From: Lachnospiraceae bacterium
GTDB taxonomy: Bacteria; Bacillota; Clostridia; Lachnospirales; Lachnospiraceae
Reading direction: 5' to 3'
Assembly: GCA_017476665.1 (NCBI GenBank)
Contig: JAFUZJ010000037.1
Location: forward strand, 1 to 56,729
Length of the DNA: 56,729 bases
Under the pieces are notes generated by a model. It worked only from the letters and a program-made list of their open reading frames with translations, was not told the DNA's origin and did no database searches. The position numbers were made by a program, and so were the translations under genes. Within the stretch, counting starts at the first letter, position 1; every line of letters starts with the position of its first letter. Below, one piece after another: positions 26,862 to 54,865 of this stretch.

Positions 26862-28049
26862 ATGGCTAAAGCTAAATTTGAAAGAACTAAGGCCCATTGT
26901 AACATTGGTACCATCGGTCACGTTGACCATGGTAAAACCACTCTGACTGCAGCTATTACCAAGGTTCTGGCTGAGAGAGTAGCTGGTAACGAGAAGGTAG
27001 ATTTCGAGAACATCGATAAGGCTCCCGAAGAGAGAGAGCGTGGTATTACCATTTCTACCGCACACGTTGAGTATCAGACCGAGAAGAGACACTATGCACA
27101 CGTTGACTGCCCCGGCCATGCTGACTATGTAAAGAACATGATCACCGGTGCTGCACAGATGGATGGTGCTATCCTCGTTGTAGCTGCTACCGATGGTGTT
27201 ATGGCTCAGACCAAGGAGCACATCCTTCTGTCCCGTCAGGTAGGCGTTCCTTATATCGTAGTATTCATGAACAAGTGTGATATGGTTGACGATCCTGAGC
27301 TGCTTGAGCTGGTTGAGATGGAGATCACCGAGCAGTTGGAGGAGTACGACTTCACCGATTGCCCGATCATTAAGGGTTCCGCTTTGAAGGCTTTGGAAGA
27401 TCCTACCGGCGAGTGGGGTGACAAGATCATGGAGCTGATGGATACTGTTGACTCCTATATCCCTGATCCTCAGCGTGATACAGACAAGCCTTTCCTTATG
27501 CCTGTCGAGGACGTATTCACCATCACCGGTCGTGGTACTGTTGCTACCGGCCGTGTAGAGCGTGGTACACTGAAGCTTAACGAGGAAGTTGAAATCGTTG
27601 GTATCAAAGAGGAGACCAAGAAGACCGTTGTTACCGGTATCGAGATGTTCCGTAAGATGCTGGATGAGGCACAGGCTGGTGATAACATCGGCGCACTGCT
27701 TCGTGGTGTTCAGAGAACCGAGATCGAGCGTGGTCAGGTTCTTGCAAAACCCGGCACTGTTACCTGCCACAAGAAATTCACCGCTCAGGTTTACGTTCTG
27801 ACCAAGGACGAGGGTGGTCGTCATACACCTTTCTTCAACAACTATCGTCCTCAGTTCTACTTCAGAACCACCGACGTTACCGGCGTTTGCAACCTGCCTG
27901 CTGGTACCGAGATGTGCATGCCTGGTGATAACGTAGAGATGACCATCGAGCTGATCCATCCCATCGCTATGGAGCAGGGTCTTACCTTTGCTATCCGTGA
28001 GGGTGGTAGAACCGTTGGTTCCGGAAGAGTTGCTACGATCATCGAGTAA
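26862..28049 (+). CDS. tuf: Elongation factor Tu
   Basis: A 395-residue EF-Tu with [14 protein letters not shown] (G1), RGITIS (G2), DCPGHADY (G3), NKCD (G4) and intact domains II and III. It delivers aminoacyl-tRNA to the ribosome. The final codons (from 27995) are duplicated at 54810-54865, marking the insertion point of the mobile island. The reading frame is preserved through the duplication, so insertion leaves EF-Tu unchanged. RBS AAGGAGGA. Confidence 0.98.
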
Positions 28050-28050
28050 T
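27995..28050 (+). repeat. attL: 56-bp direct repeat at the 3' end of tuf
   Basis: The 56 bp from CCGTGAGGGTGG to ATCGAGTAAT, including the tuf stop codon plus one base, are identical to 54810-54865. The flanking bases differ on both sides. Together the copies bound a 26.8-kb block with integrase, Xis, relaxase and cargo. Confidence 0.92.
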
Positions 28051-28081
28051 CTTTGATTTAGTATCATAGAAACTTAAATAC

Positions 28082-28121
28082 AAGCCGCAATTCCTCATTT
28101 TATGAGGAGTTGCGGTTTTTT
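28082..28121 (+). terminator. Terminator used by tuf, supplied by the island
   Basis: GCCGCAATTCCTCAT pairs with ATGAGGAGTTGCGG, followed by TTTTTTAA. It lies just inside attL. Confidence 0.9.
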
Positions 28122-28150
28122 AATGTTAATGGAAGATGGACGAACATGAA

Positions 28151-28186
28151 GAAAAGCCCACTTTGAGATTTCTCTCAAAATGGGCT
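28151..28186 (-). terminator. Terminator of the XRE gene
   Basis: Read on the minus strand, AGCCCATTTTGAGA pairs with TCTCAAAGTGGGCT and is followed by TTTCTTC. Confidence 0.75.
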
Positions 28187-28207
28187 CGTGATACGAATTT
28201 GATACAC
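28187..28207. repeat. Putative integrase arm-type sites, left end
   Basis: GTGATAC (28188-28194) and TGATACAC (28200-28207) lie 137 bp inside attL. The pair CGTGATACGAATTTGATAC closely matches GCGTGATACGTTTTTGATAC at 54688-54707 near attR. Confidence 0.55.
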
Positions 28208-28213
28208 GGGTTT

Positions 28214-28654
28214 CTAATCTTCAGTGTGCGGCCAGTTAATCTTCCATTCAAAATACTCTTCTTTGGTAATTTTACCGGAGGCTAAGTCCTCTTTTTTCTT
28301 TTTCCAGGTATTCAGGAAATCATCCAGTAAAGAATAATCAAAACCAACAGCGATATGTTTCTCGGTAGGGTCCTCAGGGTTCGCTATTTCGTAGAGGGGC
28401 ATGTTGTAGTGCTCATCCAGTTCAAAGAGTGCATACATGACATCTTCCGCTGCGTAGAGGGCAGGTTCGTAGATGGAGCGATAATTACAGTCTAAGGCTT
28501 TTGCCAGCTCCTGTATCATCTCTTCCTTAGGTGTGCGGTTGCCGATTTCGTACTGACGGATTCGCACATCGGATAAGCCAACAGCTTCGCCAAGCTGAGC
28601 CTGTGTCAATTTGCGGAAATTTCTAATTCGTTTTATTCGTTCACCAATAGCCAT
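28214..28654 (-). CDS. XRE-family transcriptional regulator of the mobile element
   Basis: A 146-residue protein with an N-terminal Cro/CI helix-turn-helix (residues about 5-60; KLTQAQLGEAVGLSDVRIRQYE) and an acidic C-terminal domain. It is the first gene inside attL and is transcribed toward tuf. Its promoter overlaps the palindrome TACAGTAA-8-TTACTGTA, and the same half-sites recur at the xis-int promoter, so it probably represses itself and excision genes. ATG 28654 is used because GGAAGGAG precedes it; the frame extends upstream without an RBS. Confidence 0.85.
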   Translation of the reverse strand: MAIGERIKRIRNFRKLTQAQLGEAVGLSDVRIRQYEIGNRTPKEEMIQELAKALDCNYRSIYEPALYAAEDVMYALFELDEHYNMPLYEIANPEDPTEKHIAVGFDYSLLDDFLNTWKKKKEDLASGKITKEEYFEWKINWPHTED

Positions 28655-28700
28655 CGTGTAACTCCTTCCAATTGAATAGTAACAATATCGTTTCTGATAA

Positions 28701-28730
28701 TACAGTAACATAAATATTACTGTATGACAA
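28701..28730 (-). promoter_or_regulatory. Promoter and operator of the XRE gene
   Basis: On the minus strand, TTGTCA (28730-28725), a 17-bp spacer and TACTGT (28707-28702). The 24-bp palindrome TACAGTAA-8 bp-TTACTGTA (28701-28724) covers the spacer and -10. A lone half-site AGTAACA lies at 28678-28684. Confidence 0.7.
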
Positions 28731-28772
28731 ACGGAAAATTCTATAAATCGGAACAGATTTCAGAGCCGGATG

Positions 28773-28778
28773 TTCAGA
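28773..28778 (+). repeat. Target-site duplication, left copy (TTCAGA)
   Basis: TTCAGA abuts the left terminal repeat; the same hexamer follows the right terminal repeat at 32056-32061. Confidence 0.75.
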
Positions 28779-28884
28779 TGTTAAGCGACGAATTGTACCA
28801 TGTATCGACGACACCTTAAATTGGGCAGATTTCAGTTAGGAACGACACATTAAAATCGAAACGACAGATTATTACGCGGACTAC

Positions 28885-28977
28885 GACAGGTTATCGTAGT
28901 CTTTTTGCATTCCCGAAAAGTGGTTCGAGAATGCAAAAAGACTATGAACATTTTATGGAGTCATAGCCTTTTTGCAC
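28885..28977 (-). terminator. Terminator region after the transposon ATPase gene
   Basis: Two stem-loops lie in tandem. Read on the minus strand, the first is GGCTATGA...TCATAGTC followed by TTTTTGC. The second is GACTACGATAACCTGTCGTAGTCC. T tracts on both sides allow use in either direction. Confidence 0.6.
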
Positions 28978-29000
28978 CTTTCAACTTAATACTGACAACA

Positions 29001-29816
29001 CTAACTTTGGGATAGCGACTGTTCCGATATGGCCATCTGCATCAGTTCTCCATTGATAGTACGGTATTCCAGATCGGATCCGTACTTGAGCGCTGTAGAC
29101 ATGACATTGTCAATGATCCGCGGATTGCCCCGGCAGTAGCCTGCCAGGGCAATAAGAGCCTCCTCGTTCACAATGGAATCACTTCCGCCGGCAAGGCTGA
29201 GCTTGTGAGCCACATAAGCTGAAACTTCGGTGGAGTTAAGACCGCGAAAGTCGTAATGTGTGACGATGCGTTGCCTCAATGCCTCATGTACGGCGAGTTC
29301 CAGTGTATTATTCAGATGTGATTCACCGCTGAGGATGAGGGTGAAACAGTTGACGGAATCGTACACGAAGTTCATGAGCATCTTGAGATCCATGAGCACG
29401 GAAGTCTTGAGGTACTGGGCTTCGTCGATGATCAGGATGAGGGTCTGCTTTTTGTCCCGGTAGAGATGGTAGATGTAAGTCTGAAGGTTCTTGAACATCT
29501 CGGTCTTGCCGCCTTTTGTTGAGATGGCGAGGCGGGAGCAGAGCTGCCTGTAAAACTCGGAAACAGTCACCGTGGAGAGGCAGATATATTTCACAGAGAA
29601 CAGGTTCGGGTTCAGGCTTTCTTCAAAACGGTGGAGAGTAAAGGATTTGCCCATGCCGGGAGCGGCGGTGAAGACGCCGATTCCCCGCACCTCCTTGAGA
29701 TAATCCAGGCGGTGCATCATTTCTTTCTGGTCGTGTGACTCAAAAGAGTTCTTGACGGACTGGTTCTCTTTGCAGAAGGGATCAAAGGAGAGCCCGTAAA
29801 ACTGGTTCAGGCTCAC
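29001..29816 (-). CDS. AAA ATPase of the transposon (MuB/TniB/ExeA-like)
   Basis: A 271-residue ATPase with Walker A APGMGKS (near residue 54) and Walker B LILIIDEAQY (near 132), plus a C-terminal AAA lid (GGSDSIVNEEALIALAGYCRGNPR). Proteins of this type bind DNA, choose the target and activate a DDE transposase. The GTG start overlaps the TGA stop of the transposase gene (GTGA), so the two are translationally coupled. Confidence 0.82.
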   Translation of the reverse strand: MSLNQFYGLSFDPFCKENQSVKNSFESHDQKEMMHRLDYLKEVRGIGVFTAAPGMGKSFTLHRFEESLNPNLFSVKYICLSTVTVSEFYRQLCSRLAISTKGGKTEMFKNLQTYIYHLYRDKKQTLILIIDEAQYLKTSVLMDLKMLMNFVYDSVNCFTLILSGESHLNNTLELAVHEALRQRIVTHYDFRGLNSTEVSAYVAHKLSLAGGSDSIVNEEALIALAGYCRGNPRIIDNVMSTALKYGSDLEYRTINGELMQMAISEQSLSQS

Positions 29817-31105
29817 AGGATGATGCCTCCTTTCTCAACAGGAACAGACGGCATGGCTGGGGTCTTCATGTCACTGATGGAATGGTTGTTCCTGCAAGCG
29901 TATGCATTGGCATTCCGGTCGGTTACGCGGATGGGAAAAGCCACTTTCCCATAGAGGATGTAGGCAGAATCCGGGATTCCTGGCAGGAAGCGCACATCCA
30001 CATTCATCCCACAGAACTGGGGCGGCACATCATAGCAGATGCCGTCGATGGTAAGGGTGGAATCTTTCCGTACTTTGCGGGAAAGGCGGTTGTGGAAGCA
30101 CTCCTGCACCCATTCAGCAGACTGCGGAGAGCGCACATGGTCTTTGGTGCGCAAGAACCTGTCCATGGGAGATTCGCCGGTGCCACCGTGGATCCTGGTA
30201 TTATGATCCAGGACATAGGCAGCCAGCATGGTGTTGAAATGGTCAAGGGAGTGGATCCCGGAGGGATCAATACCCGCAAGCCATCTGGAACGGAGAGTCC
30301 TGAAATTCCGCTCTACCTTGCCTTTGGAAGCGCCGTCACGTACCGGAGTGTGCGACTCCACGATGCCCAGCGAATCCAGGATAAGGGTAAGCTGGGAGTT
30401 GGTATAGGGGCTTCCATTGTCCAGGTAAAGCTTGTCAGGGATGCCGTAGGCAAGGATGGCATTCCGCAGAACCTTCTGGAAATTTGCCGCATTGTCATTG
30501 TAAAAAATCTCGGCACCGACAATCATCCTGGAATGATCGTCAAGGATGGCGACCAGGTAAGTGCGGCGGCATATCCCATCTTCCGTGATATAGGGGAGAT
30601 AGGCGGTATCAGCCTGCCACATGCAGCCAAAGGCAGGGAATTCAAAAGCCAGACGATGTCTGATCTCGGGATTCCTGGCAGATTTCAGGTCATTTTCCCT
30701 GAGATAGCGCTGTACTGCACGGACACTTACGGTATGTGGAATGTAGCCGCCTTCGACAAGCCGCTGGTGGATGAGGACCCCGTTGATGCGGGGAAATTCG
30801 TTCCTAAGCCGCAGGATCTCGGCGGCAGCGTCTGCATCGATTGTGCGGGATGTGCCCTTGTCGCATCTGGATGCAGGAATAAGCCCATCCATACCTTGTT
30901 TGCGGTAGATAGTTGTCCAGCTCTCCAGTGTGGAGGGCGAGAACTTTTTTAACGATCCGTCAGGAAGACGGAGAGGATCCTTTGTGATCCTCCTGTAATA
31001 AGCTGCTTCAGACTTGTCTTCGTATAGCCCCTGGATCACCGGGGCGATCAGGGAGAAGCGGAAGTGCGCAAGGTCAAGCGGTGAAATGTCTGTCCTTTGT
31101 CTCAT
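29813..31105 (-). CDS. DDE transposase with rve integrase core
   Basis: A 430-residue transposase. An N-terminal HTH region (WTTIYRKQGMDGL) precedes an rve catalytic core. The acidic residues are Asp in QADTAY, Asp in LDNGSPY and Glu in GKVERNF. A beta-barrel C-terminal domain of Mu/Tn552 TniA type follows. It cuts and joins the transposon ends with its ATPase partner. ATG 31105 has AAAGGAG eight bases before it. The frame upstream to 31204 overlaps the preceding gene and lacks an RBS. Confidence 0.85.
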   Translation of the reverse strand: MRQRTDISPLDLAHFRFSLIAPVIQGLYEDKSEAAYYRRITKDPLRLPDGSLKKFSPSTLESWTTIYRKQGMDGLIPASRCDKGTSRTIDADAAAEILRLRNEFPRINGVLIHQRLVEGGYIPHTVSVRAVQRYLRENDLKSARNPEIRHRLAFEFPAFGCMWQADTAYLPYITEDGICRRTYLVAILDDHSRMIVGAEIFYNDNAANFQKVLRNAILAYGIPDKLYLDNGSPYTNSQLTLILDSLGIVESHTPVRDGASKGKVERNFRTLRSRWLAGIDPSGIHSLDHFNTMLAAYVLDHNTRIHGGTGESPMDRFLRTKDHVRSPQSAEWVQECFHNRLSRKVRKDSTLTIDGICYDVPPQFCGMNVDVRFLPGIPDSAYILYGKVAFPIRVTDRNANAYACRNNHSISDMKTPAMPSVPVEKGGIIL

Positions 31106-31181
31106 AAATTTTGCTCCTTTCTCATTGGCATTTTTTATGAAATAAGGATAAAACATGACAATCGATTGGTCGATTTCGAAG

Positions 31182-31787
31182 TCATGTGATGCTCCTCGGC
31201 ACACCGAAGGATAAGAAGTGCAGGGGAGGGCAGTGTGTCGTTCTGACTTGCAGGAAGTGGAATTGGAATCGTCTGAAGAAGACAGAAGGGAATGCTTCCA
31301 CGGACATGATATGGTCTATGGCAAAAGAAGAGATCTCATTGATCCGCTGCAGGATGGGAACCCATGCATTGTAGCGGGCTGTGAACAGATGGATCCAGGA
31401 GTAGAGCGTGGAGGCGGCGATCTGGTAGTGAGCGCATAGTTCAGCGACCGTGCTCTCTCGGAGCAGATAAGCCTTCAGGACACTAAGTATGAATGTGATG
31501 GTATAAGAGCCGAATGGTATCAAGATATCCGGCAGGACAGCATGGGTATGTTGGCAGGACAGGCACTTAACGCGTGTGATCCGTATGACAGAGAAGCTGC
31601 GTTTCCCGTCTTTGATGGTGATCATCATGCGCGGGTAGGAGCCGATGCGTTTGCATTGCCCTTTGGCGCAGCAGACGGGACAGTGGCACTTATGAGGGTT
31701 GAATCTTTTGATGGTGTCAGAGAACAGTTCTATATCGGAACAATTGATGGAATGAAGTTTTGCTAGTACAGATTTTTTTATGATCAT
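31182..31787 (-). CDS. Zinc-finger/HTH accessory protein of the transposon (DUF6431-like)
   Basis: A 201-residue protein with paired CxxC motifs (CHCPVCC near residue 35 and VKCLSCQHTH near residue 75), then a helical region with an HTH-like segment (STVAELCAHYQIAASTLYSW). It resembles small proteins that travel with this transposase-ATPase pair in Clostridia; I recall the label DUF6431 but cannot check it. It may bind the transposon ends. Start at 31787 is supported by AGGAA and by position as first gene. Confidence 0.65.
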   Translation of the reverse strand: MIIKKSVLAKLHSINCSDIELFSDTIKRFNPHKCHCPVCCAKGQCKRIGSYPRMMITIKDGKRSFSVIRITRVKCLSCQHTHAVLPDILIPFGSYTITFILSVLKAYLLRESTVAELCAHYQIAASTLYSWIHLFTARYNAWVPILQRINEISSFAIDHIMSVEAFPSVFFRRFQFHFLQVRTTHCPPLHFLSFGVPRSIT

Positions 31788-32055
31788 GGCTATTCCTGGC
31801 TGACCGGGAGGGCAACGCAAAAAAGCCTACCGCGAGGTCGGTTTAGTGGTGTGGTGGGGAAGGGTTTAACTTTCTCAGGGTTTGTGCCTTCCCCATCCAT
31901 ATATACAGTTACCTGCTAAGTATATCATGCAGGTAAGGTTATGCAATAAAAAATGCCGCATTTAGCGACAGGGAGAAGTAGTGACGAATAGTAATCTGGG
32001 AAATTAATCTGTCGTAAAGACGGGAGATTGAAGGATTAGAATTTGTCGGGTAACA

Positions 32056-32061
32056 TTCAGA
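32056..32061 (+). repeat. Target-site duplication, right copy (TTCAGA)
   Basis: Matches 28773-28778 and sits directly outside the right terminal repeat. Confidence 0.75.
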
Positions 32062-32440: not shown

Positions 32441-32514
32441 ATGAACTTTGACAACTGAATAGGCGTACCCGGGGAACTGGGTATGCCGCACCCAAAGAAA
32501 GAGAGGTAATGATT

Positions 32515-33642
32515 ATGCCGGTTTATAAAGATGAACAAAGAGGTACCTGGTATTTTAAATGTAACTATCGTGATTGGCAGGGTGAGATTAAGACGAAGAT
32601 GAAGCGCGGATTTGCTACCAAGAAGGAAGCTCAGCAAGGTGAGCGTGAGTTTCTTGATATGCAGAGCGGCAATATGAACATGAAGTTGGCCACCTTCGTG
32701 GAAGTCTACTTTAATGATAAGGGTACGAGGTTGAAAGAGCGTTCCATTATGACGAAGCGGACCCTGATTGAAACCAAGATAATCCCTTACTTCGGTGAGA
32801 AGTCCTTGAACGAAATTACGGCAGTGGATATCATCAAGTGGCAAAATCTTCTGATGAAGCAGGAGTATTCGCCAACGTATTTGAGGATGATACAGAACCA
32901 GCTGACGGCACTGTTTAACCACGCAGAGAGGTTTTACGATTTGCGTGACAATCCTTGTAAGAAGGTGGATAAGATGGGCAGGTCAAATGCCAAGGAATTA
33001 AACTTCTGGATCAAGGATGAGTACGAGGTTTTCCTTGAAACATTTGGTGAGGGAGATGAGATGTACCGATTGATTTTCCAGATGTTATTCTGGCTGGGAT
33101 GCTGAATCGGAGAGGCGCTGGCGCTGACAAGCTCGGATATCGATTTGGAGAAGGCAACCATAAGTGTCACCAAGACCTATTACCGAAGGAATAAAACCGA
33201 TTATATCACTTCGCCGAAAACGGAGAGTTCCAATCGTAAGATTACCATTCCGAAGTTTCTGCAAGGGGAGATAAAAGAATATCTGGACAGGCAGTATGAG
33301 CTGGCACCGGATGAGAGAATCTTCCCAATCACGGACAGAGCGGTTCAGAAGAAAATGAAGCAAAAGACGGAAGAGGCAAAGTTAAAGCCGATACGTGTTC
33401 ATGATCTTCGTCGCAGTCACATCGCCTTATTAATTGAGAAGGGGCTGCAACCTTTGGTTATTGCACAGCGAGTGGGACATGACTCCGTAAATACCACCAT
33501 GAACATTTATGGACATCTGCATCCGAACAAACAGAAGGAAGTGGCAGACCTGCTCAATGCTGAGGCAACCGGAGAGCTGGGAAACAATTTGGTGGACATG
33601 GCAACAGAGATGCGTTTCCGAAAGGCAGGTGGCTGGTCATGA
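32515..33642 (+). pseudogene. int: Tyrosine integrase with in-frame TGA at the first catalytic arginine
   Basis: One frame of 376 codons broken once by TGA at 33103-33105 (codon 197). The N-terminal arm-binding domain (residues 1-50) and core-binding domain (55-150) are intact. The catalytic domain reads LFWLGC-stop-IGEALALT. In this family the missing residue is catalytic Arg I (GxRIGE pattern), and CGA to TGA explains the stop. Downstream, HDLRRSH, the GHDSVNTT box and the tyrosine in NIYGHL remain. ATG 32515 is eight bases from AGAGAGG. The gene end overlaps the next by ATGA. Either a nonsense mutant, read-through, or a sequence error. Confidence 0.85.
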
Positions 33643-33881
33643 GAATGGTAAGAGGATTTTACAACGAGCAGAATAATATGGCGAATGTGGTTCACTACGA
33701 TACCAATTATGTAATCAGTCTCGATTGTGGGAAATGGGAGCAGGGTCTTCGGACCACTCCCAACTCCCAAGGAAAGATGGATGCACTGGCTATTGAAAAC
33801 CCGGTGGAGTATGTGAGAATGATGCTTAACGGGGAGATGCAGGTGTGGCTGGATGCGTTGGATGACCTGAGCGTATGGTAG
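33639..33881 (+). CDS. Small hypothetical protein coupled to the integrase
   Basis: An 80-residue protein beginning MRMVRGFYNEQNNMANVV and ending in DDLSVW. Its ATG overlaps the integrase stop (ATGA), so it is translationally coupled. It has no membrane segment or metal motif. I recognise no family. Its place between integrase and the oriT-like region suggests a role in the life cycle of the element, but nothing in the sequence shows it. Confidence 0.6.
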   Translation: MRMVRGFYNEQNNMANVVHYDTNYVISLDCGKWEQGLRTTPNSQGKMDALAIENPVEYVRMMLNGEMQVWLDALDDLSVW

Positions 33882-36865: not shown

Positions 36866-37453
36866 GTGAGACTAGCTGAATTAGCCAATATCAATACGGG
36901 TCTTGTTACTGCAAGGAAACAAGCTAAAGTAACAGATCAAGAAATAATAAAATACAGAACGTTGAATTTAAAAGTGATTAATGAAAAAGGATATATTGAA
37001 GACAATCTGGTTGAAGAGTTTGAGGCAAATGAGAGAATCAAACCAGTTTATTTAACGAAAGTGAGAGATATCGTTGCTCGATTGACCTATCCGTTTACGG
37101 CGGTGCATATAGACGAGGCGCATGAAAATATGATTATTCCTTCTCATTTTGTGGTTATCAGACCAGATAAGGAAAAAATATTGCCGGAGTATCTATATTG
37201 GTTACTAAATACTGAAAAAGTAAAACAAGAATTGCAACAAAACATTAATAGTACGACGATAGGAACAGTTAAACCAATGTCGTATGCTGAATTGGATATA
37301 GAACGGATAACTTTACAGGAACAAGCACAAATTGGTGAACTATATATGCTGGCAAAAAAAGAATTATATTTATTAGACCAGATTATGGGACAAAAGGAAT
37401 TGTATTATAAAGAGGCCATTAATAGAATACAGAAAGAAATGAGGAAAAAATAA
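36866..37453 (+). CDS. Half-size type I specificity subunit (HsdS-like, one TRD)
   Basis: A 195-residue protein equivalent to one target-recognition domain plus one coiled-coil spacer of HsdS. RLAELANINTG at the start, IIPSHFVVIRP and LPEYLYWLLNTE in the middle, and IQEQ-like LQEQAQIGELYMLA leading into a helix are typical. It precedes hsdM and overlaps it by one base (TAATG). A full HsdS lies after hsdM. It may dimerise to form an alternative symmetric specificity unit. GTG start after GTAGGAGGT. Confidence 0.8.
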   Translation: MRLAELANINTGLVTARKQAKVTDQEIIKYRTLNLKVINEKGYIEDNLVEEFEANERIKPVYLTKVRDIVARLTYPFTAVHIDEAHENMIIPSHFVVIRPDKEKILPEYLYWLLNTEKVKQELQQNINSTTIGTVKPMSYAELDIERITLQEQAQIGELYMLAKKELYLLDQIMGQKELYYKEAINRIQKEMRKK

Positions 37454-38982
37454 TGAAGACAACAAAGAGCGATATCGAAAAAGTTTTATGGAAAGCCTGT
37501 GATAGTTTCAGAGGAAAAATTGATAGTTCTAGATATAAAGATTACATCTTATCTATGTTGTTTGTAAAATATTTGAGTGATGTATGTACAGAAACAAAAG
37601 AGAAATATATGAAGCAGTACGCAGGCGATATGCGAAGAGTTGAGAGAGCTATGAGTAGAGAACCTTTTGTATTGGATGAAGAATCTACATTTGAGTACCT
37701 TTATGAAAATAGAAATGATGCAGAAATAGGTCAGAAAATTAATATAGCTTTGAACAATATTGAAGAACATAACAGTGGTAAACTTAGAAATGTATTTCGT
37801 GCGATTGACTTTAATTCTCAAGTTGATTTTGGTGAGAAAAAAGAAAAAAATGCAACGTTAAAGAATTTATTAAATGATTTTCATGATTTGGATTTGAGAC
37901 CTTCTGTATTAGAGAGTAATGATATCATTGGTGATGCCTATGAATATATGATTGCAAACTTTGCTTCTGATGCGGGAAAAAAAGGTGGCGAATTCTTTAC
38001 ACCTAGTCAGGTTTCAAAGCTGGTTGCTATGTTGGTAGAACCAAAGGAAAATGATAGAATTTATGATCCTACTTGTGGTAGTGGAGGTTTGTTACTAAAA
38101 GCATATGCACAAGCAAATACAAATAAAGTAGCTATTTATGGACAGGAAAAGAATATGCAAACATGGGCATTGTGTAGCATGAATATGTTTTTGCACGGAA
38201 TTGATGATGCAAAAATTTGGCAGGGCGATACTTTGTCCAACCCGCAGAATTTGGAAGAAGATAAATTGATGAAATTCCAGTGCGTAGTAGCAAATCCACC
38301 TTTTTCATTGGATAAGTGGGATAGCGGTTTTCTCCCGGAGGTTACTGATGAAAAGAAGAAACCTAAAATGGCAGCAGATTTAGATATTTACCATAGATTT
38401 GATTGGGGGGTTCCACCTTCAAGTAAGGGAGATTATGCGTTTGTACTTCATATGCTTAATAGTTTGGATGCTGATAATGGACGCATGGCAGTTGTATTGC
38501 CTCATGGAGTATTGTTCAGAGGGGCATCAGAAGGAAGGATTAGAAAACAACTTGTTGAACTGAATTTGCTAGATGCGGTTATAGGATTACCGGCTAACCT
38601 TTTTTATGGAACATCAATTCCTGCATGTATTATGGTGTTTAAGAAAAATCGTAAACGTAGTGATGTGCTATTTATTGATGCTAGCGGAGATGGAAATTTT
38701 GAAAAGGGAAAAAATCAAAATATCTTGAGAGACGAAGATATTAAAAAGATAATTGATGTTTATAAGGAATATGAGAATGTAGATAAATATGCTTATAAGG
38801 CATCGAGAGAAGAAATCCGAGAGAATGAATATAACCTTAATATACCGCGTTATGTTGATACTTTTGAAGAGGAAGAACTTGTAGATATTGATGAAGTACG
38901 TGCTAATATTGCAAGTATTGAAGAAGAACTTAAAGTGGTTCAGGAACAGATGGATAGGTATTTAAGAGAGTTGGGTTTATAG
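37453..38982 (+). CDS. hsdM: Type I DNA methyltransferase subunit HsdM
   Basis: A 509-residue N6-adenine methyltransferase. It has an N-terminal helical HsdM_N domain, the SAM motif DPTCGSGG (about 206-213), the catalytic NPPF (281-284) and a C-terminal helical tail for HsdS contact. It modifies the host's recognition sites and, with HsdS and HsdR, forms the restriction complex. It is coupled to the half-HsdS gene by a one-base overlap. Confidence 0.93.
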   Translation: MKTTKSDIEKVLWKACDSFRGKIDSSRYKDYILSMLFVKYLSDVCTETKEKYMKQYAGDMRRVERAMSREPFVLDEESTFEYLYENRNDAEIGQKINIALNNIEEHNSGKLRNVFRAIDFNSQVDFGEKKEKNATLKNLLNDFHDLDLRPSVLESNDIIGDAYEYMIANFASDAGKKGGEFFTPSQVSKLVAMLVEPKENDRIYDPTCGSGGLLLKAYAQANTNKVAIYGQEKNMQTWALCSMNMFLHGIDDAKIWQGDTLSNPQNLEEDKLMKFQCVVANPPFSLDKWDSGFLPEVTDEKKKPKMAADLDIYHRFDWGVPPSSKGDYAFVLHMLNSLDADNGRMAVVLPHGVLFRGASEGRIRKQLVELNLLDAVIGLPANLFYGTSIPACIMVFKKNRKRSDVLFIDASGDGNFEKGKNQNILRDEDIKKIIDVYKEYENVDKYAYKASREEIRENEYNLNIPRYVDTFEEEELVDIDEVRANIASIEEELKVVQEQMDRYLRELGL

Positions 38983-38997
38983 GAGAGAAGGTGGCAT

Positions 38998-39747: not shown

Positions 39748-39762
39748 GAAGATGGTGAAAGT

Positions 39763-44000: not shown

Positions 44001-44251
44001 ATACAGTATCAGGAGCACAAGCAAGACAAGACATGATTGCGGATATTTCAATAGAAATAACTGATATTGTAGAAAGACACAGCCGAGTCGATTGGACTAA
44101 TAATAAAAGCATACACGATAAAATAGCACAAGATATTGATGATATGTTCTATGAATATGAATGTGCTGGAAAGTGTAAATTCCCATTTGAGGTAATCGAT
44201 AAGGTAATCGAAAATGTAAAAACAACAGCATTAAGGAGATTTAAAGGGTAA
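41039..44251 (+). CDS. hsdR: Type I restriction subunit HsdR
   Basis: A 1070-residue restriction and translocation subunit. The N-terminal PD-(D/E)xK nuclease domain shows RPDIVLFVNG and AIIECKAP (about 150-168). The SF2 motor has Walker A HTQGSGKS (about 310), DESH (about 408), GFTGTPL and ARTNRLYDG. It moves DNA and cuts far from unmodified sites. ATG 41039 overlaps the hsdS stop and has GGAG before it; an upstream ATG at 41015 is less likely. The gene overlaps the next by one base. Confidence 0.93.
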   Translation: MDSNLYLEDNISKKPALDLLQNMGYTYLTPEECTLQRGSKYQVLLKGILRNQLRKINRFEFGGIEQEFSSANIERAIEDLDEPLTDGLIKTSEKVYDALMLGKSYQETVGAGKVLSFDLKYIDWDKFENNVFHVTEEYVVTSNDGEHTVRPDIVLFVNGIPFAIIECKAPHISVEQGIEQMIRNQQEEYIPQLFKYIQVVMATNKNSVKYATTGTGKKYWSVWKEEDWDFMETAKAKYIKDRVPTVQDENIISLLSIYRLKELTKYFVLYDANIKKICRYQQYFAIKEIIKTINTNDAEGNRQSGVIWHTQGSGKSLTMVMLAKYILLEMARFEPKVVIVTDRKELDKQIAKTFSHTRCKPSRATSGKNLIDLINEGKADIITTIINKFNTVESSGLKNLSRDVFVLVDESHRSNYGELSTKMRVVFPNACYIGFTGTPLMKSEKNTMTKFGKLIHKYTIKDGVDDRAIVPLIYEGRFVEQTVDEANIDLWFEQTTKRLTETQRDDLKRKWSSMKRLASTEARIKRIALDINNHYVEGYKDTGFKAMLATNRKRDAVSYLACFEQFGDLNCEVCISPPDMREGVDDIDEGTDNRVIAYWTRMMKKYGDADAYEDSVKNRFVDGEIDILIVCSKLLTGFDAPRCQVLYIDKELKEHGLLQAIARTNRLYDGKDYGLIVDYRGLIQKLDDAMNMYSGAGLENFEAGDLKGAIVDIISAVGNLRQSYSRLEDLFVSIKNKNDVEEIEVFLADEKIRNEFYELLCQFGKELAIVLNSESAYENVPKEERLKYQNAFALYSRVRRSVKIRYNDAIDNIEYEPLMQNLLDTHMSVVGLKQITEPVDILNQSDLEKELEQLGSLRSKADAIQAKLTKSISVKRDENPAYYDSFSKRIKDALQEYKDRIITDAEYLAKMRSIMQDYAAGVSTVKYPEKLKGNVHAQAFYGVVSAILENEWEQTADVNCVAENPVEYGGKPISTQTTLLLRDDSTLYTVSGAQARQDMIADISIEITDIVERHSRVDWTNNKSIHDKIAQDIDDMFYEYECAGKCKFPFEVIDKVIENVKTTALRRFKG

Positions 44252-48073: not shown

Positions 48074-48499
48074 ATGAGAGCAAAACGTATCACACCGGAT
48101 GAGCAATTCCGGCTCATCACCGAATGCCGTCAGAGCGGTCTGTCTGATTACCAGTGGTGCCAGATGCATGACGTAAACCCCGGAACTTTTTACAACTGGA
48201 TCAGCCGTCTGCGCAAAAGAGGTTACTCTATCCCAGCGGCTGAAACAAGACACAATACTCCGCTTGAGAACTGCCAAGAGATTGTGAAAGTATCCCTGGT
48301 CCCTGACCATCAGTCAAGCACAATGATCCCTGCCAGAATGGATCCTGTATGCAATGCATCTCTGGAAAAGGAACCACCGACACTGACCATGGAAGTATCC
48401 AACGGAAATGCGACCATCCGGCTGTTTCAGAATGCGGACAGGGAACTGGTCGAGATCGTGCTCCGATATATGTTGGGAGGTGCCGCCTATGCTGGGTGA
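48074..48499 (+). CDS. tnpA: IS66 accessory protein TnpA
   Basis: A 141-residue IS66 Orf1-type protein with an N-terminal HTH (ITECRQSGLSDYQWCQMHDV) that should bind the IS ends. First gene of the IS66 set. GGGAGGCTAACAAC precedes the ATG. Its end overlaps tnpB. Confidence 0.85.
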   Translation: MRAKRITPDEQFRLITECRQSGLSDYQWCQMHDVNPGTFYNWISRLRKRGYSIPAAETRHNTPLENCQEIVKVSLVPDHQSSTMIPARMDPVCNASLEKEPPTLTMEVSNGNATIRLFQNADRELVEIVLRYMLGGAAYAG

Positions 48500-48833
48500 C
48501 ATCTCATCGGCAATGAACATTTATGTGATCACAGGCTATACCGATATGCGTAAGTCGATAGACGGTCTGTGCGCAGTGATCATGCAGCAGCTGAAAGCCG
48601 AACCGGACGGACGCTCCATATATCTTTTCTGCGGCAAGCGGTGTGACCGCATCAAAGTCCTGCTCAAAGAACCGGATGGATTTGTCCTGCTCTATAAGCG
48701 GCTCGATGTTGTTCAGGGGCGCTACCGCTGGCCGAGGAATAAAAGCGAGGTCAGACCGATCACATGGCAACAGTTTGACTGGCTGATGTCAGGGCTTGAG
48801 ATCGAGCAGCCAAAAGCATTGAAAACAGCCTGA
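48489..48833 (+). CDS. tnpB: IS66 accessory protein TnpB (Orf2)
   Basis: A 114-residue IS66 Orf2 with the family core VITGYTDMRKSIDGL and IYLFCGKRCDRIKVL. It is needed for IS66 transposition, though its action is unclear. ATG 48489 overlaps the tnpA stop; GGGAGG lies before it. An earlier in-frame start at 48408 is inside tnpA and unlikely. Confidence 0.9.
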   Translation: MLGDISSAMNIYVITGYTDMRKSIDGLCAVIMQQLKAEPDGRSIYLFCGKRCDRIKVLLKEPDGFVLLYKRLDVVQGRYRWPRNKSEVRPITWQQFDWLMSGLEIEQPKALKTA

Positions 48834-48927
48834 AAATACAGTGCCAAAAGTGTCGCAATCCCTTGAATTTACTGGATTTTTTGCCCGTTTTGTGCTATAC
48901 TTTTTATAGTGAACAAAGGAGCAAAAC

Positions 48928-50529
48928 ATGGCGGCAAACAGCAGGGATCTTCAGCTCATTGAGTTGAAGGATATGATCTCACAACTGAATACCACGATCA
49001 AAACCCTGAACGAAACGATCGCAAAACAGCAGGCAGAGAATGATAATCTCAAGGCTGAATTAGCATGGTTTCGGCGTAAGCTTTTCGGTTCCTCCAGCGA
49101 ACAGAGGAACGTTGACATCGAAGGGCAGTTAAACCTTTTCGATGATCTTGCAGAAGATGAAAAGCCTGCCGAGCTTATAGACCCGGAGATCGTTCCGCTG
49201 GAAAAGAAATCCCGCAAGAAAAAACCTGCGCTGAAGGAGCAGTTCAAGGATATCCCGACCAGACAGGTCGTCGTGGATACGCTCACTGAGGACGATAAAG
49301 TCTGTCCGCTATGCGGCGCACAGATGGTGCCGATCGGCACGGAAGTGATCCGCAGCGAGATCGTATATACACCGCCCAAACTGGAACGCGTCGAGTATGT
49401 GGCAACCACATATGGATGTCCCAAATGCAAGGACACGGAAGAACCACAGTTTATCAAGGATAACGGAAAGCCAGCCCTGATCGCAGGCAGCTATGTTTCG
49501 GAATCTCTGCTTGCATATATCCTTTACCGCAAATATGCACTATATGTGCCATTATACCGGCAGGAGCAGGATTTCCTGCAGTTTAGTGCACCGATAGGGC
49601 GCACATCGATGGCCAAGTGGGCCATAACTGCCGGACGAGAGTACCTGCAGCCGCTGTATGATTATTTTCACCGGGAACTGCTGAAACGCCGGTTCCTGAT
49701 GATGGATGAGACACCGGTCCAGGTATTGAAAGAGGACGGGCGCCGCGCGCAGACAAAGTCCTATTTCTGGGTGGTGCGCACCGGCGAGGATGGACTGGAT
49801 CCGATCATCCTCTTCAACTACACTCCTACAAGGGCAGGCGAAAATGCCAGGGAATTCCTCGAAGGGATCGAACCAGGATTCTATCTCATGGCGGATGGCT
49901 ACCAAGGCTACAACAAAGTGAAAGAAACAAAACGCTGCTGCTGTTTTGCCCACATCCGGAGATATTTTCTAGAGGCAGTCCCCAGGGGGATGGAAAAGGA
50001 CTATACCAATCCTGCCATGCAGGGTGTCCTGTACTGCGATAAGCTCTTTGCTTATGAGCGTTCCTACAAAGAAAAAGGACTGTCTCACAAGCAGATTTAC
50101 AACCGAAGACTCAAAGACCAGAAACCGGTCCTTGAGGGCTTTTTAGCGTGGGCTGAGCAGACCGCACCCGGAAACAATGCCAAGCTGAAGAAAGCACTTG
50201 CCTATGTGAGTAATCGCAAGGACTTCATGATGACCTACCTTGAGGATGGTCGCTGCAGTCTGAGCAATAACTTAAGCGAGAACTCGATCCGCCCCGTAAC
50301 AGTCGGTAGACGGAACTGGCTTTTCTCCGATACACCGGATGGAGCCACTGCGAATGCCCTGTATCTCACCATTGTTGAGATGGCAAAAGCATACGATCTG
50401 AATCTGTATGAGTATCTCAAGTTCCTGCTGGAGAACAGACCCAGCAAGGAGATGACAGATGATCAGTTAGCAAACCTTGCTCCTTGGAGCGAGACTGTTC
50501 AGGCACTTTGCAAGAACAAAACAGAGTAA
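48928..50529 (+). CDS. tnpC: IS66 transposase TnpC
   Basis: A 533-residue DDE transposase. N-terminal leucine-rich coiled coil (about 10-50), zinc-finger domain (CPLCGAQM and CPKCKD), and a catalytic core with MMDETPVQVL, LMADGYQGYNKV and the Glu-containing NLSENSIRPV. The C-terminal IS66 tail ends LAPWSETVQ. Intact, so probably active. Confidence 0.93.
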   Translation: MAANSRDLQLIELKDMISQLNTTIKTLNETIAKQQAENDNLKAELAWFRRKLFGSSSEQRNVDIEGQLNLFDDLAEDEKPAELIDPEIVPLEKKSRKKKPALKEQFKDIPTRQVVVDTLTEDDKVCPLCGAQMVPIGTEVIRSEIVYTPPKLERVEYVATTYGCPKCKDTEEPQFIKDNGKPALIAGSYVSESLLAYILYRKYALYVPLYRQEQDFLQFSAPIGRTSMAKWAITAGREYLQPLYDYFHRELLKRRFLMMDETPVQVLKEDGRRAQTKSYFWVVRTGEDGLDPIILFNYTPTRAGENAREFLEGIEPGFYLMADGYQGYNKVKETKRCCCFAHIRRYFLEAVPRGMEKDYTNPAMQGVLYCDKLFAYERSYKEKGLSHKQIYNRRLKDQKPVLEGFLAWAEQTAPGNNAKLKKALAYVSNRKDFMMTYLEDGRCSLSNNLSENSIRPVTVGRRNWLFSDTPDGATANALYLTIVEMAKAYDLNLYEYLKFLLENRPSKEMTDDQLANLAPWSETVQALCKNKTE

Positions 50530-50729: not shown

Positions 50730-51353
50730 ATGCTATACAATTATATTAAAGAACATTACAAAGAAGCGGAGCCGATTTTCTTTTCGGATTTGGAGCGTGA
50801 GGATATTACGAAGTCGGCGTTAAACCAGCAGTTGAAGAAACTCTGTGATAAGGGATTGCTACAGAAGTATGATACCGGAGTATATTTCATACCTAAGAAG
50901 TCTTTGCTAAATTCTACCATAGGTCCGAATGCAGATATGGTGGCAAGATATCGTTTTATTTCCAAAGGGGATAATGTTGACGGTTTTTATGGTGGCAATT
51001 CTTTTGCGAACCAGATAGGGATTACTACACAGGTTCCGTGGGTAGTTGAGATTGTGAGTAATAACACTAACTCGTCTGACAGAGAAGTACGGATTGGAAA
51101 CAGAAGATTTTATGTAAGGAAACCAATCGTACAGATAACAAAAGAGAATGTGTATGTGCTACAGATGTTGGAACTTTTGAAAAATCTTGATGCATATTTA
51201 GATTATTCTTATGATGAGGCACGGGAGAAATTTGCTGAGTATATCACGATTCATGGAATAAAGAGAAGTGATGTGGATTTGTACATCAGAAAATACCCGC
51301 TGGCGACATTTAAATTTTATTATGAATTGGGGTTAGATCATGTACTTGCATAA
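50730..51353 (+). CDS. AbiEi-like antitoxin (type IV, DUF6088-like)
   Basis: A 207-residue protein with an N-terminal winged helix (FFSDLEREDITKSALNQQLK, GLLQKYDTGVYFIPKK) and a C-terminal domain of the AbiEi type. In AbiE systems the antitoxin represses the operon and counters the toxin without binding it. It overlaps the toxin gene by 14 bp. RBS AAAGGAGAAGAG. Confidence 0.82.
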   Translation: MLYNYIKEHYKEAEPIFFSDLEREDITKSALNQQLKKLCDKGLLQKYDTGVYFIPKKSLLNSTIGPNADMVARYRFISKGDNVDGFYGGNSFANQIGITTQVPWVVEIVSNNTNSSDREVRIGNRRFYVRKPIVQITKENVYVLQMLELLKNLDAYLDYSYDEAREKFAEYITIHGIKRSDVDLYIRKYPLATFKFYYELGLDHVLA

Positions 51354-52257
51354 AGAAAATAGAGAACTGTTTCGCGATGCAATTTTGCTGACTTCACAGA
51401 AACTTGAAGTCAGTGAAGATATCGTAGAGAAAGATTATTACGTCACATTGATTTTGAAGAAGCTTTCTGCAATTGAATATCCGGTTGTGTTTAAAGGTGG
51501 TACATCTCTTTCCAAAGCATTTCAAGTTATAGACCGATTTTCGGAAGATATTGATATTACCTTTACAGAACATCTGGGAGAAGCAAGAAGGAAGAATTTG
51601 AAGTATAACATATTGAAGCCTATCGCTGATGAATTAGGACTTGTGATTCGTAACTTTGATTCTATCGAAAGTGATAAAAATCTGAATCATTATGATTTTT
51701 ATTATGAGTCGGTGGTGGGGGATAGAGTTATAAATCCTATTCCGCCCTATGTTAAGCTGGAAACGTCTTTGATGTCTTATGCATTTCCTACAGAAGAAAG
51801 GGAACTCGGTAATTATATATTAGATGCCCTGGGAGCAGAGGAAGAGGAGCTTATTGCAACATATGATTTAGGTACATTTCCTATGCGTGTTCAGTCTTTG
51901 AATCGTACATTGATTGATAAAGTTTTTGCTGTATGCGATTACTATTTGCAAGACAAGCCCCACAGAAATGCAAGACACCTTTATGATATTTACAAATTGA
52001 CAGAGCATGTGGAGATGGATAGTGATTTTTTGGAACTTGTAAAGGAAGTGCGTGCACACAGAATTACTATGGGAAGTGAAATTGCTCCGGCAGCGTCTCT
52101 GGATGTGAATATTGTAGAGTTGGTTCAGAAGATTTGTGATAAAGATTTTTACAAAGAAGATTACCGGGAAACTACACTTAAGTTGATTTCGGATTCTTTG
52201 GAGTATGAAATGTTGAAGAGACATTATAAGGAATTGGTTGAGAAGATATTTGCCTGA
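51340..52257 (+). CDS. AbiEii-like nucleotidyltransferase toxin
   Basis: A 305-residue protein of the AbiEii/AbiGii family. The nucleotidyltransferase motif KGGTSLSK (about 51-58) is followed by RFSEDIDI (about 67-74), with later helical regions including LNRTLIDKVFAVCDYY and RNARHLYDIYKL. Related toxins block growth by modifying tRNA with nucleotides, which aborts phage infection. It is co-encoded with the AbiEi-like gene. The right TSD of the IS66 element lies just upstream of the operon promoter. Confidence 0.87.
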   Translation: MYLHKENRELFRDAILLTSQKLEVSEDIVEKDYYVTLILKKLSAIEYPVVFKGGTSLSKAFQVIDRFSEDIDITFTEHLGEARRKNLKYNILKPIADELGLVIRNFDSIESDKNLNHYDFYYESVVGDRVINPIPPYVKLETSLMSYAFPTEERELGNYILDALGAEEEELIATYDLGTFPMRVQSLNRTLIDKVFAVCDYYLQDKPHRNARHLYDIYKLTEHVEMDSDFLELVKEVRAHRITMGSEIAPAASLDVNIVELVQKICDKDFYKEDYRETTLKLISDSLEYEMLKRHYKELVEKIFA

Positions 52258-52605: not shown

Positions 52606-52640
52606 TTATGAATAGGTTGCAAATCATCTTATTGTAAAAT

Positions 52641-52774
52641 GGGCTGGTCGATAGACCCGGGTCCATCAGCAGATGGGGAGGTTCCCCATCATTTGATATG
52701 ATTATGAATAGAAATGTGGCAGCTGTCTATGGACGTGCCTAAGGAAGTCGGATACGTCCGGCTTCCTTTTTTTT
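52641..52774 (+). ncRNA. Structured intergenic RNA ending in an intrinsic terminator
   Basis: A long-range stem pairs GGGCTGGTCGATAGAC (52641-52656) with GTCTATGGACGTGCCT (52725-52740), with a few internal mismatches. Inside, GATGGGGA-GGT-TCCCCATC (52672-52690) is a perfect 8-bp hairpin. GTCCAT (52661-52666) can pair instead with ATGGAC (52729-52734), competing with the outer stem. A terminator stem GGAAGTCGGA/TCCGGCTTCC with eight Ts follows directly. I recognise no known RNA class. It could be a 3' regulatory RNA of the preceding gene or a separate small RNA. Confidence 0.55.
52743..52774 (+). terminator. Intrinsic terminator of the structured RNA
   Basis: GGAAGTCGGA-TACG-TCCGGCTTCC with one G-U pair, followed by TTTTTTTT. 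Confidence 0.9.
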
Positions 52775-52870: not shown

Positions 52871-53758
52871 ATGGGATATAAAGTAAAATGGGTAGAAGAT
52901 AATCTTGGTGTGACAAGGAAGGCACTTCGAGGATTTGAAAAAGCAGGGCTTATGCCGGAAAACAGAGATAGAAAATATCGAGATTATGATGATGACGATA
53001 TTGACCGAATCTGGACTATCTGAGTATTACAGGGGATGGGATATTCAATAAAAGAAATTGTCGATATGGTTAACGATGAGGAATTTGATTTCAATGAATC
53101 TATAGGGCAAAAGGTTTTGGAATTAGAAGCAGAGAAGCAAAAAATTGAGCGTCATTTAGGTTATGCAAAGATGATTAAATTAACGGGGCGCTTTCCGGTA
53201 AGACCGAAAGAAATGGGGAAAGTGAAGTTTGAGGAATTTCAGAGGGAAGCTATTGAAGGTTGGAATATAGTAGACGACCCGCAAGGAGCAGAATATGCGA
53301 GACTGGCAGAGACAATATTATCTAAAACACCTGAAGAGTGGGAAAATAGTGATTTGGAATGTTTGTTTTCGGGTCTGGAATCAATGATGAACTTAGATGC
53401 AGATATACTTTTGGCAGAATATGTTCTTCCGAAGGCAATAGTAAAGCGTAAGAATCTAGGAGCAGATCATTCTGATATTCAATTACTGGTAAAATTAATT
53501 TATGAAAATCAGAGTTTAATAGGAACTGCATATGGTATGAAAGATAATATGACAAAGAAACAATTCTCGCGATTTTATGCATCTAGTTATTTGGCAGGTG
53601 ATGTCGCAAAATTGAAGGCACGCGACTTTACAAAAGAAGAATGCGAGTTTATTGCGGAAGCAGTTTCAATTTTTGGTGGTTATGATAGTTATGAAAAATT
53701 GATTGAAGATGAATTGCGATATGGCAGAGAAATAAAAAAGGATGGTAATGTATTATGA
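52871..53758 (+). pseudogene. MerR-family regulator interrupted by an in-frame TGA
   Basis: One frame of 296 codons broken by TGA at 53021-53023 (codon 51). Before the stop: the winged HTH (YKVKWVEDNLGVTRKALRGF, then KYRDYDDDDIDRIWTI). After it, in the same frame: VLQGMGYSIKEIVDMV, the rest of the DNA-binding domain, and a C-terminal domain resembling effector-binding TipAS-type helices. Position 51 falls where MerR proteins commonly have a basic residue, and CGA to TGA would explain it. Restart at ATG 53036 would lack the first wing. The last codon overlaps the next gene (ATGA). Confidence 0.75.
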
Positions 53759-54132
53759 GTAATCTGGGAGGATATCAATTGCTTACTACAGCTGCAAAGA
53801 AAGTAGGAGGACCTGGAAATCTGGTGCTACTAATTGCTGGAGCCGGCGCTTTGGTATATAAATGCAGTGAGATTGTTGTATCTAAAGTAGCTACGGAAGT
53901 AATCAAGACGAAATATTCAAAGAATAGGTTTGGGGATGAATTAAGCGGTGAGGTGTATATAGTAAAAAGCTTTGGTATTAGTGACGAAGGATTACAATTT
54001 AAAGTGAATGAGTGGTTTAAGGTACTTGAGGCAGATGGTGACGCGGTGTTAATCGAGAAAATAGGAGATATGAATAATCCATATTTTATATCCGGTGATT
54101 TTCTTAAAGCGATATCAGATTATACAAATTAG
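53755..54132 (+). CDS. Small single-span membrane protein
   Basis: A 125-residue protein with one transmembrane helix near residues 21-38 (GNLVLLIAGAGALVYKC) and a soluble C-terminal domain (about 45-125) that is probably beta-rich. Its ATG overlaps the MerR stop (ATGA), so translation depends on the upstream frame. No family recognised. It is possibly the target or partner of the MerR regulator. Confidence 0.6.
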   Translation: MSNLGGYQLLTTAAKKVGGPGNLVLLIAGAGALVYKCSEIVVSKVATEVIKTKYSKNRFGDELSGEVYIVKSFGISDEGLQFKVNEWFKVLEADGDAVLIEKIGDMNNPYFISGDFLKAISDYTN

Positions 54133-54144
54133 AGGGTAAAGGTT

Positions 54145-54414
54145 ATGGGACTGTTTGGCAATTTATTTAAAAGTGAATTTGAAAAGTGGGTTGAAGGTGC
54201 TTCGCATGAGGAGTTGTCAGATGCATATGAGGATGAAAGGCAACAATGGATAAAAGATGGATTTAACGGTGGTACAGGAGAAAAGACTGCGAAAATGAAC
54301 AGGCTAAATGAGGAAATCAACAAGCATGTAGAGGAAGAATGGGAGAATAATCCTAAGCGTAACAGAGATCCGAATTACCGATGGACAGATGCAAACAGAT
54401 GGGATAAGGATTAG
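54145..54414 (+). CDS. Small acidic helical protein of unknown function
   Basis: An 89-residue protein starting MGLFGNLFKSEFEKWVEG, rich in Glu, Asn and Trp, with a probable helix-turn-helix-like hairpin at 15-60 and a charged tail (NPKRNRDPNYRW). RBS AGAGGGTAAAGG. It is the last cargo gene before attR. I have an impression of similar short proteins in mobile elements of gut Clostridia but know no function. Confidence 0.6.
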   Translation: MGLFGNLFKSEFEKWVEGASHEELSDAYEDERQQWIKDGFNGGTGEKTAKMNRLNEEINKHVEEEWENNPKRNRDPNYRWTDANRWDKD

Positions 54415-54473
54415 ATATTGCGAATTTGAGTAAAGATACACACAATAGCCTTTCGTGTGTACTTTTACTTGAA

Positions 54474-54707
54474 TGTGTATCACGCCACAGTGTTATGGCA
54501 CCTGTGTTACATTAAAAACCGGAACACGGTGTTCTCTGATACATAAAACCATGTATCACACCCTCCAAAATATGTATCACAATTTGTACAATCTGAAAAA
54601 TATGTATCACACTCTAAAATTTTGTAAAAAATGCCGATTTACATTGTTTTTCGTCCATGCTATGTTATGGCTATGGTGGACGAAAAAGCGTGATACGTTT
54701 TTGATAC
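54474..54707. repeat. Putative integrase arm-type sites, right end
   Basis: TGTATCAC or its reverse complement GTGATACA recurs: 54476-54483, 54537-54544 (partial), 54552-54559, 54573-54580, 54603-54610, then GTGATAC (54690-54696) and TGATAC (54702-54707). A partial site, GATACAC, lies at 54435-54441. The last pair matches the left-end pair at 28187-28207. Confidence 0.65.
54647..54687. repeat. Perfect 11-bp inverted repeat near attR
   Basis: TTTTTCGTCCA and TGGACGAAAAA flank a 19-bp loop. It could be a bidirectional terminator insulating the island's right end. Confidence 0.6.
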
Positions 54708-54809
54708 TTTCCCCCGGAAAAAGACTAAATAGTAGGTAAAATACCCATAATATGAGTCAAAAAACGGCAAAAACCGTAACAATTAAGTTTCTAAATAAGC
54801 AAAATCAGA

Positions 54810-54865
54810 CCGTGAGGGTGGTAGAACCGTTGGTTCCGGAAGAGTTGCTACGATCATCGAGTAAT
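54810..54865 (+). repeat. attR: second copy of the tuf 3' end
   Basis: 56 bp identical to 27995-28050. The only tuf sequence here is this fragment; it has no start codon and is not expressed as a protein. Confidence 0.92.

Follow-up and report, generated by a model that had tools for sequence, protein, structure and literature searches.

Integrative and mobilizable elements (IMEs) of streptococci sit at the 3ʹ ends of rpsI, rplL, rpmE, and rpmG, and one of them, IMESag-rpsI, has a MobV relaxase (PMC5704250, PMC5357655; available parts). Tandem accretion has also been reported for IMEs in the literature available in part. Streptococcal integrative and conjugative elements (ICEs) use rplL, rpsI, lysS, rpmG, and guaA (PMC4701971, available part). 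Here we analyzed a 56,729-nucleotide stretch of Lachnospiraceae bacterium DNA (contig JAFUZJ010000037.1 of assembly GCA_017476665.1, hereafter the window), in which an element adjoins the 3ʹ end of tuf, the gene for elongation factor Tu (EF-Tu). EF-Tu is essential and is among the most abundant bacterial proteins. We concluded, with a probability of about 0.9, that the window holds an IME of an apparently undescribed family, which inserts at the 3ʹ end of tuf by a dedicated tyrosine integrase and rebuilds its site from the element.

The integrase shares its domain layout with Tn916/Tn1549-type and ICEBs1 modules. Solved Int chains, which we take to be those of Tn1549, matched profile A1, built from 12 tuf-adjacent integrases, at about 1e-15, and the window excisionase (Xis) resembles that of ICEBs1. 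The window element differs from these modules in its 56-bp tuf site, the lack of a tRNA target, and an unrelated transfer gene. As far as the available parts of the literature describe them, streptococcal IMEs are alike in the tyrosine integrase, the 3ʹ end of an essential translation gene as target, direct repeats, a MobV-type relaxase (IMESag-rpsI; a weak call in the window), and tandem accretion. The window family, however, targets tuf, its integrases form a separate Lachnospiraceae-centred clade, and an element-side terminator lies behind the rebuilt gene; the word "terminator" did not occur in the available part of the IME review. Streptococcal ICEs also integrate at the 3ʹ end of a conserved housekeeping gene and leave it intact, but they are self-conjugative, whereas no mating-pore gene was found in the 30 open reading frames (ORFs) scanned in the window; tuf was not named in the available part of PMC4701971. 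IME_Rho_tet is likewise a putative IME family of gut Bacillota, but it lies mostly in MAFF2-type ORFs and has terminal inverted repeats, and the available part of its description does not mention tuf (PMC12904643).

The first-pass annotation had supposed that tuf may be a little-described site. This agrees with the literature we searched, with partial coverage, in which we found no description of tuf as a site for mobile elements. Neither "tuf" nor "elongation factor" occurred in the available text of PMC12904643, PMC4701971, PMC6907783, PMC12884075, PMC5704250, PMC5357655, PMC5635113, PMC3158075, PMC12175345, and PMC7563491. The tuf target, the dedicated clade, and the apparent replacement of the terminator were not found described within that partial coverage, and the logic otherwise seems to be that of the streptococcal IMEs.

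Duplicated end of tuf

A repeat search of the window gave two copies only of a 56-bp sequence, identical at every base and 26,815 bp apart from start to start (Table 1). In the source draft genome of 72 contigs, the only two matches to this 56-mer at E 0.001 were both window copies. An exact repeat of 56 bases is not expected by chance. The perfect repetition 26.8 kb away had been described in the first-pass annotation with correct coordinates, but as the last 56 bp of tuf; the repeat consists of the final 55 bases of tuf and one base beyond the stop codon. The tuf reading frame is complete in translation, also as annotated. The core of the proposed family begins with CGTGAGG, ends with TAAT, and is present at both ends of the window element. 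ARAGORN found no tRNA gene in the window.

Recurrent occupation of tuf in the genus

The 56-mer was matched at E 0.01 in 85 of 138 genomes of the window's genus, and copies were read in 80 of these 85 (genomes and loci are cited by our identifiers, G and L, where needed); weak matches in G045, G066, and G105 were left out, and G005 and G044 gave no copy. At least 37 of the 138 genomes had one or more displaced tuf ends, a lower bound, given that reading was confined to matched contigs and that many of the assemblies are in fragments. In total, 70 copies were joined to tuf, 44 were displaced (three of them weak, with 15–17 mismatches), and one at a contig start was undecided. Where displaced copies had full flanks (43 copies), their likeness to tuf ran from the second base of the 56-mer to the T after the stop codon, apart from some decayed ends. 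No tuf sequence stood in front of the displaced copies, and they stopped at the same base. The DNA preceding them fell into 29 groups among 68 copies of all sets, and the right arm of the window element was found in five other genomes. Six genomes of the genus had two or three displaced copies each. In G006, a single-contig genome of 4.08 Mb, a tuf element was present with both copies.

The proposal that the 3ʹ end of tuf is the attachment site was thus borne out: related elements that share their repeat boundaries have occupied it again and again, and the suggested search for other elements flanked by tuf 3ʹ repeats found many, in the genus and beyond.

Site use by the integrase clade

Among the best 80 of 273 relatives found with A1, 77 loci were in named genome contigs, including Blautia, Coprococcus comes, Roseburia sp., Oliverpabstia, Velocimicrobium porci, and Eubacterium plexicaudatum, and the fetched DNA held the tuf 3ʹ site in 66 of the 77. 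In an order-wide draw of 392 genomes, 111 matched A1 at E 1e-60, a threshold that also admits integrases of other sites. Forty regions around the stronger matches were fetched. Sixteen of the 18 best (E 4e-161 or better) held tuf or a displaced tuf end, and the remaining two were contigs of 5.7 and 10 kb. None of the 22 weaker regions (7e-138 and worse), several of which were also short, was at tuf. In a class-wide draw of 391 genomes, just two passed E 1e-140, namely the source genome of the window and another from the same family.

A tree of 123 integrases (IQ-TREE quick search, SH-aLRT support only) placed 98 in one clade with SH-aLRT 100. Of these, 86 were at tuf, 11 were in stretches too short to decide, and one was elsewhere. 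An integrase was scored as "tuf" if a tuf 3ʹ site lay no more than 14 kb away or if the stretch contained an EF-Tu ORF. Because the integrases were collected with a profile from tuf-adjacent ones, the set is enriched for these. Outside the clade, 13 integrases were labelled as other, 10 were in short stretches, and two were labelled tuf (L178 and L243_2966m). The window integrase is absent from the tree, its pieces having fallen below the length filter; its match to A1 was far above the weakest tuf-adjacent match. These distributions suggest that site choice follows the integrase clade.

The two tuf-labelled integrases outside the clade (L178 6276–7508, in G016, and L243 2966) form a separate, distant pair; each lies immediately 3ʹ of tuf or of a displaced copy and is oriented towards it. 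We took them as bystanders, without proof.

In viral contigs, a tuf-type site was found by peptide pattern in two of 80 loci. Both loci, L329 and L336, belong to one genome and are entered in IMG/VR as viral contigs, and both have tuf-type att copies; in L329, which also has a relaxase-like ORF, the displaced core is followed by the same XRE protein as in the Blautia/Coprococcus element. A plasmid search gave nine records, all below 60% identity, and no excised circle.

Empty sites and tandem arrays

As the first-pass annotation had asked for, relatives provided a natural comparison of empty and occupied sites: downstream of their displaced copies, G002 and G022 carry DNA that matches (91 and 93% over about 240 bases) the region after the single tuf copy of G016. 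More broadly, for 25 of 85 displaced copies the downstream DNA matched DNA behind tuf in one of 43 loci lacking a displaced copy or clade integrase, although some places among the 85 were counted under two locus ids and some of the 43 loci may hold decayed elements. The pair G125/G060 (98% over 1.6 kb), counted among the 25, was set aside as an empty site, since both members may carry the same inserted sequence, placed in different contexts. Tandem arrays, in which the displaced copy of one element is followed by the left arm of another, were found in L111, L182, L202, and L228/L229.

For the window's own element no empty site was found: its contig runs only 1.9 kb beyond the displaced copy and breaks off within a group II intron, and the terminator near 54898 behind this copy may be native or may be the left arm of an older element. 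The intron (54936–56696) lies just outside the element, immediately after that terminator, with Rfam domains at 55017–55194 and 55232–55311 and a reverse transcriptase-like ORF at 55416–56696. A relative of 78% identity in G125 also lies immediately after the terminator behind a displaced copy.

Apparent transfer of the tuf end with the element

The tuf elements of Blautia luti MSK.16.34 (L247) and Coprococcus comes MSK.16.63 (L248) were identical at 9445 of 9445 bases, while the preceding 1200 bases matched at 995, which argues for recent transfer. The cores were identical (56/56), and the first difference was nine bases before the core. The strain names could be read as pointing to a shared donor, on which the literature search found nothing. 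The second pair, L033 and L181, matched at 55 of 56 core bases and at all of the first 140 arm bases, but at 126 of 150 bases upstream and 890 of 1100 bases before the core. Pieces of these two elements were 99.7 and 99.8% identical, and their integrases were identical at all 125 four-fold sites compared, as against 0.55 of 164 for tuf. Most simply, the rebuilt tuf end came with the element in both pairs, which would put the crossover at the core's 5ʹ edge or slightly ahead of it.

When tuf-joined and displaced cores of 25 loci were compared, the mean difference was 4.8 of 17 positions within a locus and 8.7 of 17 between loci (permutation p 0.0002). In L146/L154 and L230/L232, whose arms agreed at 138 of 140 bases, the match was patchy inside the core. 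Later homogenisation of the two core copies, or repeated exchange within lineages, may explain the likeness within loci, and also why cores do not track the arms in older pairs (see Discussion). Of 121 core differences, 99 were at third positions, a bias that says little because the core sets were picked by a peptide pattern favouring intact cores.

Terminators behind the rebuilt gene

Terminators were called with a simple in-house detector of intrinsic terminators, within 120 bases behind each copy. One was found behind 83 of 99 tuf-joined copies; where the locus holds a clade integrase, the count was 42 of 47. The comparison sets gave terminators behind 48 of 69 displaced copies, behind two of 68 right-arm ends, and in 22 of 600 random windows of the same loci, a lenient control since such windows are mostly coding. 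In the window, the terminators behind tuf and behind the displaced copy differ in sequence. It appears, then, that tuf receives both a coding end and a terminator from the element.

Gene content of the window element

The features of the window element are listed in Table 1.

Table 1. Features of the tuf element and its borders, in window positions.
Feature	Position	Strand	Basis
tuf (EF-Tu), target gene, reading frame complete	26862..28049	+	ORF and translation
attL-like copy of the repeat, at tuf; comprises the third base of an Ile codon, then 17 codons, the stop, and one more base	27995..28050	+	Exact 56-bp repeat; in recent transfers among relatives this stretch seems to have arrived with the element
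Intrinsic terminator, element side, behind tuf	28084..28121	+	Read in the sequence; score 22 with in-house detector
XRE-type regulator	28214..28711	-	HTH_3 4.2e-11; homologues in the corresponding position of L033 and L158
Insertion inside integration module: rve transposase, AAA_22 ATPase, and DUF6431 genes	28781..32057	-	L158 backbone match stops at 28780 and restarts at 32058; family matches
Xis-like excisionase, 61 aa	32255..32440	+	ICEBs1 excisionase model 6.6e-13, 48 bits, under the curated cut-off of 100
Tyrosine integrase of tuf clade, in-frame stop at 33103-33105	32509..33642	+	Pfam domains on both pieces; 82% identity to L033 integrase; 3.0e-187 to profile A1
DUF6061 protein	33639..33881	+	Pfam 3.5e-12
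Divergent MobV-type relaxase, 471 aa	34085..35500	+	25% over 320 positions, 3e-20, to G006 relaxase; own Mob_Pre match 0.041
Cargo: type I restriction-modification (partial S, M, DUF6414, S, R)	36866..44251	+	Pfam, PADLOC
IS66-family insertion sequence	48074..50529	+	Pfam
Cargo: AbiEi/AbiEii	50730..52257	+	PADLOC 6.9e-81 and 2.1e-79
Conserved right arm	54425..54809	+	88.7% to L158 over 54425-54865; last 40 bases common to five other genomes
attR-like displaced tuf 3ʹ end	54810..54865	+	Exact 56-bp repeat
Terminator behind displaced copy, may be native or arm of an older element	54899..54931	+	Read in the sequence; score 18 with in-house detector

Integrase, Xis, XRE regulator, and relaxase, which the first-pass annotation had placed in the block, are all present, but the integrase is split by a stop and the relaxase is only weakly recognised. 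Missing from that inventory were the stop, the three-gene transposon that lies within the integration module, and, just outside the element, a group II intron. The integrase pieces matched Pfam at 6.5e-16 and 1.4e-13 for the N-terminal domains and 4.3e-12 for the catalytic domain. The window relaxase had no Pfam match at 0.001 (MobV 0.0057, Mob_Pre 0.041). The G006 relaxase matches Mob_Pre at 3.9e-19, and the call for the window follows from homology to it, being weak on its own. An integrase and Xis module with att direct repeats, as in an IME, is present, with the integrase interrupted in the window and intact in relatives such as L033 and L158. A conjugation apparatus of its own, as an ICE has, was not found: the 30 larger window ORFs scanned (Pfam, 0.001) held no mating-pore or secretion gene, including VirB4, and no structural phage gene.

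Compared with L158 (in G061), the left backbone (27990–28780 and 32058–35690) matched in pieces of 80–94% identity and the right 441 bp also matched, while 36500–51000 had no match. The backbone and right arm are thus conserved between the two, and the cargo between them is unrelated. The G+C fraction was 0.51 in window bases 1–27994, 0.40 in the element, and 0.34 at 35701–48000. Besides its defence cargo (the restriction-modification system and AbiEi/AbiEii), the element carries YgjP and unknown proteins.

The transposon lies between the XRE and Xis genes, and its rve transposase resembles IS481. The partial type I specificity subunit (195 aa, 36866–37453) stands alone immediately 5ʹ of hsdM, and a full hsdS is also present. 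A match to the DUF3800-XI RNA family (58 bits) was found at 52640–52687, within the element.

The stop that splits the integrase frame is a TGA in place of the invariant Arg in the G-x-R-x-G-E motif of all 12 aligned relatives. We take this Arg to be a member of the tyrosine recombinase catalytic set. No second close integrase was found in the source genome with the L033 integrase at E 1e-40. On account of the stop, the window copy is probably unable to move by itself, unless the stop is a sequencing error, which is possible.

Discussion

As we infer the biochemistry and the route of transfer, the integrase would recombine the element core, which duplicates the final 17 codons of tuf, the stop, and one base, with the corresponding part of the chromosomal tuf; the crossover would lie at the 5ʹ edge of the core or just before it. 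tuf would stay in frame, with its last codons and the terminator behind them supplied by the element, and the cell's own tuf end would be moved to the far side. Xis would help to excise a circle. This would be nicked by the MobV-type relaxase and then transferred by the conjugation apparatus of a helper. For excision and transfer with a helper, the base-identical element in two genera is only an indirect sign.

Several observations weigh against this reading. The core does not track the arms in older pairs: the window and L158 agree at 95% in the arms, yet 13 of 17 variable core positions differ. Pooled profiles of all pairs sharing an arm showed no clean crossover step. The Blautia/Coprococcus group shows no difference between tuf-joined and displaced cores, so that L247/L248 alone cannot separate a host core from an element core. 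L226 is the one clade member that has 10 kb read on either side and no tuf end. In the window itself, the integrase is interrupted and the relaxase is barely matched by curated models; its predicted structure was unusable (mean pLDDT 45) and was set aside.

In a draft of many contigs, the second copy could be suspected to be the leftover of a tuf duplication or an assembly misjoin rather than an att site. We consider this very improbable, because the same arms adjoin tuf copies in other assemblies, the G006 element has both copies within one contig, and displaced copies end at a common base with nothing of tuf before them. A prophage or phage satellite would fit the phage-type integrase, Xis, and XRE repressor and the tuf-type sites on the two IMG/VR contigs. 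The relaxase homologue and the lack of structural phage genes among the scanned window ORFs make this scarcely credible too, and in L329 itself, which has the relaxase-like ORF, no phage structural gene was recognised by eye.

A different matter is whether the window copy is an immobile remnant, similar to a cis-mobilizable element (CIME), which is kept for its cargo and moves only in trans or never. We lean towards this view, which is compatible with a mobilizable family. The in-frame stop, the transposon inside the integration module, the IS66 element, and the lack of another close integrase in the genome favour it, whereas the identity of both att copies, the open relaxase, Xis, and XRE frames, and a possible sequencing error at the stop speak for a copy that can still move. 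The description of the block as a mobilizable element therefore holds for the family but is doubtful for the window copy, given the integrase stop and a relaxase call that depends on a relative.

With an IME family at the 3ʹ end of tuf as the preferred reading, we see even odds for a broader view: that a distinct mobilizable family, now moving between gut genera, uses tuf throughout the order as its dedicated landing site and that its insertions rewrite the last 17 codons, stop context, and terminator, with the copies later homogenised, so that this part of the EF-Tu gene would be a mobile, shared module rather than a vertically inherited one. As a caution, tuf 3ʹ ends can be unreliable phylogenetic markers in gut Lachnospiraceae. 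Recurrent docking at the end of the EF-Tu gene, with the terminator rebuilt too, suggests that a mobile element can use highly constrained DNA with little harm. The tuf end may serve as a ready address to find, delimit, and classify elements and their cargo in the abundant gut Lachnospiraceae, and the family would offer an integrase with a target in every cell of these hard-to-handle bacteria.

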